From an uncultured Dehalococcoidia bacterium (GTDB taxonomy: Bacteria > Chloroflexota > Dehalococcoidia > Lucifugimonadales > Australimonadaceae), in contig OY282355.1 of the NCBI GenBank assembly GCA_958295525.1, positions 186,001-250,000 on the forward strand: a stretch of DNA of 64,000 nucleotides. Direction: 5' to 3'. Below the pieces are notes generated by a model. That model was not told the origin of the DNA. It did no database searches and saw only the letters and a program-made list of their open reading frames with translations. Position 1 is the stretch's first letter. The number at the start of each line of letters is the position of its first letter. A program made the position numbers and the translations under genes. Of this stretch, positions 44,279-46,098 are shown in pieces.

Positions 44279-44530
44279 TCACTCCTGCGGGTCGAGTTGG
44301 AGCGGGCGGAAGTAGAGCCCCCACTTCTCCATCAATCCCCGCACCTCGGGCGAGTCGAGTTTGACGAGGTCGTTGAAGAAGCCCGCGATGGCGTGCGCGT
44401 GGAGTTGCTCAGGCTCGGCCACCCAACTCGCCTCGGACGGGACGGCGTAGATTAGGCCCGCTTGGTTGCGCGAGCGCACCTCGACCCGCGTTCCGCCGCC
44501 GCCGCGCTTCACCGTGATGCCGCTGGCCAT
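44279..44530 (-). CDS. Conserved small protein of unknown function
   Basis: This 83-residue soluble protein starts with a basic, Gly-rich beta segment (GITVKRGGGGTRVEVRSRNQ) and continues with a helical half (LHAHAIAGFFNDLVKLDSPE) ending in LMEKWGLYFRPLQLDPQE. No family recognised. It has a good AGGAGG site and a perfect TATAAT upstream (44557-44552), divergent from selD by 60 bases. Confidence 0.65.
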   Translation of the reverse strand: MASGITVKRGGGGTRVEVRSRNQAGLIYAVPSEASWVAEPEQLHAHAIAGFFNDLVKLDSPEVRGLMEKWGLYFRPLQLDPQE

Positions 44531-44551
44531 AGGAGTCCTCCTGACGCGGGC

Positions 44552-44557
44552 ATTATA
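44552..44557 (-). promoter_or_regulatory. -10 box of the small gene divergent from selD
   Basis: TATAAT on the minus strand, 21 bases before the ATG at 44530. With the plus-strand TATAAT at 44578 it makes a compact divergent promoter pair; the boxes are 20 bases apart, so the two polymerases would compete. Confidence 0.5.
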
Positions 44558-44577
44558 CGCGGCGCTGGAGGGCGCGC

Positions 44578-44583
44578 TATAAT
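44578..44583 (+). promoter_or_regulatory. -10 box of selD, seven bases before its ATG
   Basis: A perfect TATAAT ends at 44583 and the ATG begins at 44591. Initiation about seven bases after the box falls on the A of the ATG, so the mRNA is predicted to be leaderless. No Shine-Dalgarno is possible upstream. Confidence 0.55.
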
Positions 44584-44590
44584 TGCGCTT

Positions 44591-45640
44591 ATGACGCGGG
44601 AGGAGATACGGCTTACGACGCTGGCGTCGTGCGCGGGGTGAGCGGGGAAGTTCGCTATGGAGGACCTCGGCGAGGTTCTGAGCCACTTGCCCCACGCGCA
44701 GGATCCGAACTTGCTGGTGGGCACCGCGACGGGCGACGACGCGGCGGTCTACCGGCTGGCCGAGGGCGTTCTCACCGTGCACACGGCGGACTTCTTCCCG
44801 CCCATCGTTGACGACGCCTACGACTTCGGCGCGATCGCCGCCGTCAACGCGCTGAGCGACGTGTACGCGATGGGCGGCAGGCCGCTGATCGCGCTGAACA
44901 TCGCCTGCTTCCCCGAAGATCTGCCCCGCGAGACGCTGGGGCGCATTCTGCGGGGCGCGGGCGACGCGGCGCGGGAGGCAGGCGTCGTGATCGGCGGCGG
45001 TCACACGGTGAAGGACGCGGAGTTGAAGTTCGGGCTGGCGGTCACCGGCGTCGTGGAGGAAGCGTCGCTGCTGACGAACGCGGGGGCGCGGCCCGGCGAC
45101 GCGCTCGTTCTGACGAAGCCCGTCGGCACGGGGATCATTACGACGGCGGCGAAGGCGCAGCAGTGCGGCGAGGAGACGCTCGCGGAGGCCGTTCGGACGA
45201 TGCGCCTGCTGAACCGCGCGGCGTCGGAGGCGGCGGTTGCGGCGGGAGCGCGCGCGGCGACCGACGTGACGGGGTTCGGCCTCATCGGGCACTTGACGGG
45301 TATGATGCGGGCGAGCGGGGCGTCGGCGCAGGTTCGGTTATCGAGCGTTCCGCTGCTGCCGGGAACACGGGAGTTGCTGGAGCGCGGGTTCGCGCCCGGC
45401 GGAACGCGCGCGAATCTGGACGCGGCGAACGCGACGACGGCGTGGGACGCGCAACTCAGCGAGGACGACCGCTTGCTGCTCTGCGACGCGCAGACGTCGG
45501 GAGGGCTGTTGATCGCCGTAGCGCAGGAGCGGCTGGGCGCGCTGGAGGCGGAACTCGCGGCGCGGGGCGCGGACGGCGCGGCGGTCGGCGCCGTCGCGGA
45601 GCGCCGAGCCGACGGCGCGCTCGTCGCGGCGTCCGTCTGA
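44591..45640 (+). CDS. selD: Selenide, water dikinase; probable selenoprotein with in-frame TGA
   Basis: This enzyme makes selenophosphate from selenide and ATP. The frame from ATG 44591 reads MTREEIRLTTLASCAG, then TGA (44639-44641), then AGKFAMEDLGEV and the well-conserved rest. SelD proteins carry a Cys or Sec at exactly this place in the CAG(C/U)AxK loop, so TGA is read as selenocysteine (residue 17). Full length is 349 residues. Downstream marks are GTATGDDAAVYRL, VHTADFFPPIVDD, NALSDVYAMGGRP and VIGGGHTVKDAE. The next ATG (44657) would drop the active-site segment. No selA, selB or selC is in the window. Confidence 0.88.
44639..44678 (+). other. Sec UGA codon and SECIS-like hairpin
   Basis: After the TGA at 44639-44641 a six-pair stem GACCTC (44663-44668) and GAGGTT (44672-44677) closes a GGC loop, about 27 bases downstream. 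That is within the spacing of bacterial SECIS elements. The fold was found by eye, and longer pairings were not computed. Confidence 0.5.
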
Positions 45641-45699: not shown

Positions 45700-46098
45700 A
45701 TGAAAATTCCGGCTGACGTTCGCGGCGCGATGATCGCGCACGCGCTGGAGGAAGACCCGAACGAATGCTGCGGGCTTTTGGCCGGATCGGACGGCGTGGT
45801 TCGGAAGCATTACCGGATAACGAACGCGGAGCGCAGCCCGTACCGCTACAGCATGGACGGGCGCGAACTCAACGCCGCGCTGCGCGAGATAGACGACAGC
45901 GGGTGGGAGTTGCAGGTCATCTACCATTCGCACACGCACAGCCCGGCGTACCCGTCGGACACGGACACGCGGCTGGCGGCGAACTGGCCCGACCCGTATT
46001 ACCTGCTGATCTCGCTGCTGGACAAGGAGTCGCCTGACGTGCGGATGTTCACCATCGCCGACGGAGCGGTCACGGAGGAGGAATTTGAGGTCGCGTAG
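45700..46098 (+). CDS. JAMM/MPN+ (M67 family) metallopeptidase
   Basis: This 132-residue zinc peptidase has an N-terminal catalytic Glu in DPNECCGLLAGSDG and the JAMM motif HSHTHSPAYPSDTD, complete. Bacterial members often remove residues from sulfur-carrier proteins such as ThiS, MoaD or CysO analogues, as in the cysteine pathway of Actinobacteria. No carrier gene is adjacent. It follows selD by 59 bases with its own GAGGAGG site, so co-transcription is likely; a sulfur/selenium link is only suggestive. Confidence 0.9.
   Translation: MKIPADVRGAMIAHALEEDPNECCGLLAGSDGVVRKHYRITNAERSPYRYSMDGRELNAALREIDDSGWELQVIYHSHTHSPAYPSDTDTRLAANWPDPYYLLISLLDKESPDVRMFTIADGAVTEEEFEVA

Follow-up and report, generated by a model that had tools for sequence, protein, structure and literature searches.

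A probable selenocysteine-containing SelD of an uncultured Dehalococcoidia bacterium and its predicted leaderless messenger

The selD locus

The stretch of DNA analysed here (the window, 64,000 nucleotides of contig OY282355.1) comes from an uncultured Dehalococcoidia bacterium of the phylum Chloroflexota. At positions 44591..45640 of its plus strand lies selD, which encodes a selenide water dikinase of 349 residues. Direct reading places the ATG at 44591-44593 and the terminal stop, a TGA, at 45638-45640. When the in-frame TGA found at codon 17 (44639..44641, plus strand) is translated as selenocysteine (U), the product starts with MTREEIRLTTLASCAGUAGKF and continues into a complete SelD. The NCBIfam SelD profile, TIGR00476, matches this product with 376.1 bits (cut-off 125) between residues 7-313 of the protein and 1-309 of the profile. 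This is a full-length match that includes the N-terminal loop and makes the product a member of the family. In a phmmer comparison with solved structures, the SelD structure 3u0o aligns with nearly the whole protein (E 2e-73). An earlier note on this DNA had proposed ATG 44591 as the start of SelD, and the 349-residue frame and these two alignments bear it out. The same note had predicted that ordinary annotation would begin at 44657. Indeed, the standard-code open reading frame starts at that ATG and loses residues 1-22, so that an automatic start at 44657 deletes the catalytic residue of the enzyme and calls for correction.

No co-directional gene is found directly upstream of selD. The neighbour on that side is a small divergent ORF (44279..44530, minus strand) with its ATG at 44530 and the Shine-Dalgarno sequence AGGAGG, which bounds the selD promoter region. 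Downstream, a JAMM-type metalloprotease-like gene occupies positions 45700-46098, and at least six relatives (L019, L023, L032, L033, L039 and L040) have a JAMM-like motif in the vicinity of selD.

Promoter and 5' end of the selD mRNA

A TATAAT -10 promoter box (44578..44583, plus strand) is separated from the selD ATG by the seven bases TGCGCTT (44584-44590), exactly as the earlier note had read it. The arrangement is shared by most of the window's family: in 12 of 13 copies, TATAAT or TATACT is found 6-7 nt before the ATG. Bases resembling a Shine-Dalgarno site are absent from 11 of these 12 box-bearing copies; in the twelfth, L025, a weak site stands at 11 nt. The exception inside the family, L020, has a Shine-Dalgarno site and a TTG start. 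The sequence signature of a leaderless gene is a -10 box whose end lies 5-8 nt from the start codon, together with the lack of a Shine-Dalgarno site, and the window's selD displays both features. In the other families of the order, 31 of 35 copies carry a Shine-Dalgarno-like site instead, and such -10 boxes as can be recognised ahead of the likely start lie mostly 24-39 nt upstream; the exception outside the family is L143, from an AT-rich genome, with TATATT.

The intergenic stretch 44531-44590 is 60 bp long and holds two divergent TATAAT boxes. With a divergent neighbour at so short a distance, selD depends on a promoter of its own within this gap. The minus-strand box (44557-44552) is followed by a 21-nt spacer, with AGGAGG, to its gene; the plus-strand box leaves no room for a leader.

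The perfect box-to-start pattern is not peculiar to selD. It occurs 14 times in the window's genome, versus once for the reversed pattern, and nine of the thirteen other sites open frames of at least 175 codons. The pattern is also enriched in several GC-rich relatives. From these counts, leaderless starts are predicted to be common in this genome. Chloroflexi are among the medium-GC groups for which a leaderless signal of the TAtaaT type has been reported (PMC3160421). In Epsilonproteobacteria, genes are known to have changed between the leadered and the leaderless state lineage by lineage (PMC3847290). At the start of selB (L174, minus strand), TATCCT precedes the ATG by 6 nt and no Shine-Dalgarno site is found nearby; the selB mRNA may be leaderless too.

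The selD mRNA could alternatively carry a leader, transcribed from a promoter lying farther upstream, in the divergent gene or elsewhere in the 60-bp gap. Leaders with Shine-Dalgarno sites in L020 and in most copies from the order's other families would fit such an origin. We nevertheless consider it unlikely, in view of the box conserved so close to the start in the window's family and the near-general lack of Shine-Dalgarno-like bases behind it. Moreover, the upstream gene is divergent and therefore provides no operon read-through into selD, and the same box pattern precedes other plausible genes of the genome. Thus the leaderless mRNA proposed by the earlier note is strongly supported at the promoter level, and the selD mRNA is probably leaderless in most of the window's family. 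For bacterial selenoproteins, no account of a leaderless mRNA turned up in a search of the open-licence literature.

The predicted selenocysteine codon and the selenium machinery

The TGA at codon 17 stands opposite Cys17 of E. coli SelD (SCAGUAGKF in the window's protein, HGAGCGCKI in 3u0o), as the earlier note had expected a cysteine to do, and the lysine conserved after this position is also present. In E. coli SelD, Cys17 binds selenide and a serine mutant is inactive (PMC3956282). All 48 base-readable copies of the window's order, the window's own included, carry TGA at this codon; relatives starting after the TGA, which the earlier note had named as evidence against its reading, were not encountered among them. 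In the 46 other genomes of the order with a real SelD, a single in-frame TGA interrupts the protein in every copy; a few of these alignments also extend beyond a terminal TAG. Among homologues from other phyla the position is occupied by TGA, TGC or TGT, the latter two being the codons of the Cys-SelDs. Thus the SelD of the window is, judging from its sequence, a selenoprotein with a predicted Sec17 in the active site. Sec-SelD is already a well-known kind of gene, of which this is a further example.

The genome also has the means to read such a codon. All three genes on which the earlier note had made the reading depend were found: a tRNA-Sec gene (selC) with anticodon TCA, selB, whose product has the SelB winged-helix domains, and selA (SelA match of 498.6 bits). 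Co-occurrence among the genomes of comparison also favours the reading: five genomes of the window's order (G031, G040, G042, G045 and G056) have neither selD nor selB above the cut-off. Against it, G034 and G012, the latter 88% complete, have a Sec-SelD and no selB above the cut-off, and in several others selB was found and selD was not.

These data bear on two further readings of the in-frame TGA. Translation might begin at ATG 44657, giving a SelD devoid of the N-terminal catalytic loop, the frame upstream being fortuitous or decayed. This agrees with the standard-code reading, but it is very improbable, given that the TGA-bearing N-terminal segment is conserved throughout the order and aligned with E. 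coli Cys17, that the Sec machinery is present and that the loop is required for catalysis in E. coli. Genome-wide reassignment of UGA to a standard amino acid, with which the conserved in-frame TGA would also agree, is close to refuted, because selD itself ends in TGA, beyond which similarity to the relatives stops, so that UGA still acts as a stop elsewhere, because selA, selB and other long genes contain no in-frame TGA, and because dedicated tRNA-Sec, SelA and SelB are present.

SelD was considered as the sole selenoprotein of the genome, served by a machinery working only for itself; this was rejected, as four other redox genes containing TGA were found. The genome holds at least four further thiol-redox genes with an in-frame TGA. 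Two are of the peroxiredoxin type. In one the TGA is part of the redox motif FTGGUTTQ (L165:1621-1623, plus strand; G000:C1:1967469-1967846), in the other of the motif FYRGFFUGTC (L168, minus strand; G000:C1:1424495-1424866). The latter gene has the hairpin CCAACUC-GGC-GAGUUGG, whose apex, CUC-GGC-GAG, is the same as that of the selD hairpin described below. The other two form a tandem TlpA-like pair (L172:950-2260; G000:C1:2504880-2506156), both with FFATWUP(S/N)C, in which UxxC replaces CxxC. A search of the genome for mnmH (selenouridine synthase) found none, and the formate dehydrogenase homologue is without an in-frame stop. A codon-bias scan of the window and of selected loci gave no convincing candidate for other TGA genes, and a search for the UGSC family was uninformative, as no control genome gave a match.

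A probable SECIS hairpin downstream of the UGA

A hairpin resembling a bacterial SECIS element (bSECIS) is found at 44661..44679 on the plus strand. Its arms, AGGACCUC (44661-44668) and GAGGUUCU (44672-44679), form 8 base pairs closed by the loop GGC (44669-44671), 27 nt separate the TGA from the loop, and the hairpin alone has a folding energy of -9.0 kcal/mol. The earlier note had described a six-pair hairpin with a three-base loop about 27 bases after the TGA; the location and the loop were right, and the pair count was too low. Published limits for bSECIS elements are a stem of 4-16 bp, a loop of 3-9 nt with a G in its first two bases, a spacing of 16-37 nt after the UGA and a minimum free energy of at most -7.5 kcal/mol (PMC13188914), and the selD hairpin falls within every one of them.

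The bases of the hairpin encode the conserved peptide EDLGEVL and are partly palindromic from coding alone. Therefore, pairing was compared with synonymous codon shuffles preserving the protein and the codon usage of each gene. Perfect stems are found in 13 of 13 members of the window's family, where 2.0 are expected. Altogether 104 of 104 pairs are formed versus 85.9 expected (z 6.0), the family copies amounting to about seven distinct hairpin sequences and z values being upper bounds because these sequences are related. Two of the pairs show changes on both sides within the family (covariation), and the signal is abolished when the partners are shifted in a slide control. The hairpin looked for by the earlier note is thus present and maintained through synonymous choice. 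In 53 Cys-SelD controls, pairing is at expectation both in this register and in the second one described below (z -0.1 and -0.3). Because the hairpin exceeds the shuffle null in the family while the Cys-SelD controls are without signal, it is very probably a bacterial SECIS element.

For the window's sequence alone, the minimum free energy does not differ significantly from that of synonymous shuffles. In this GC-rich gene, z-scores of folding energy were uninformative whether dinucleotide or synonymous shuffles served as the null, and pairing was therefore tested register by register. The minimum-energy fold of the whole 5' region favours a different structure over the hairpin, whose pairing probability is about 0.04 in this context and rises to about 0.90 or more when the bases before 44650 are occupied, as they would be with a ribosome standing at the UGA.

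A second register, 6 nt further from the UGA, places the loop, mostly of the GU type, at 33 nt. The Sec-SelDs compared came from the order (loci L017-L046 and L127-L145) and from other phyla (L047-L095). This second hairpin gave the stronger signal in the rest of the order (z 6.8), where the first hairpin also reaches z 3.9, and in the other phyla (z 6.2). It is depleted in the window's family (z -3.8). Of the two registers, the family uses only the one at 27 nt and other phyla favour the one at 33 nt; in several families of the order, either hairpin could be formed.

A model for selenocysteine insertion on the selD messenger

The overall reading of the locus given in the earlier note is supported. 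Taken together, the features above are best explained, with high confidence for a conclusion drawn from sequence comparison, by a Sec-SelD gene whose mRNA would be leaderless and whose SECIS hairpin would be read by SelB. An RNA polymerase of the sigma-70 type would begin transcription on the A of ATG 44591 or on an adjacent base, as the position of the promoter suggests, yielding an mRNA with neither a leader nor a Shine-Dalgarno site. The ribosome would initiate on the 5' AUG, read 16 codons and reach the UGA. Its advance would by then have unfolded the 5' region of the message and so freed the 8-bp hairpin at 44661-44679. SelB carrying Sec-tRNA-Sec would presumably bind this hairpin and insert selenocysteine, following the known mechanism of bacterial Sec insertion. 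Selenium would then be handled by Sec17, as it is by Cys17 in E. coli SelD, and the selenophosphate made by SelD would be used by SelA to provide Sec for SelD itself and for other selenoproteins, among them the peroxiredoxin-like and TlpA-like candidates.

The earlier note had found it unusual that a leaderless mRNA should support UGA recoding so close to its 5' end. This was overstated: Sec at codon 16-19 is usual in the SelDs compared, whether a leader is present or absent. Bacterial Sec insertion relies on signals downstream of the UGA (PMC13188914). Since the UGA is in its normal position, preceded by 48 coding nucleotides (16 codons) and followed by the SECIS element, no special mechanism is required.

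It is rather likely that the window's family is distinguished by a selD that is leaderless, unlike that of most of the order, and by a SECIS element 6 nt nearer the UGA than in other phyla, start, UGA recoding and SECIS all being contained in the first 90 nt. The comparative evidence suggests that Sec insertion can work on a message that is very probably without a leader. The leaderless family and its leadered sister families, with the same gene and the same UGA, form a natural pair in which the effect of the mode of initiation on recoding could be measured.

Comparison with known systems

Sec-containing SelDs of bacteria have been listed in 38 cases (PMC1794560). The window's gene shares with them the protein family, a Sec near residue 17, a SECIS element just downstream and the presence of selA, selB and selC; it differs in that its mRNA is probably leaderless. 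Its probable SECIS element agrees with the bacterial consensus (PMC13188914) in the lengths of stem and loop, in the G that opens the loop, and in spacing and energy. Compared with the Sec-SelDs sampled from other phyla, the loop follows the UGA at 27 nt, against 33 nt in theirs, and it is GGC where theirs is of the GU type, which does not amount to a difference of class. With the TA-led leaderless genes of bacteria (PMC3160421), the window's selD has in common a TATAAT placed some 12 nt ahead of the start (counted from its second base) and the lack of a Shine-Dalgarno site; what sets it apart from them is that it is a selenoprotein gene, its leaderless state being a prediction.
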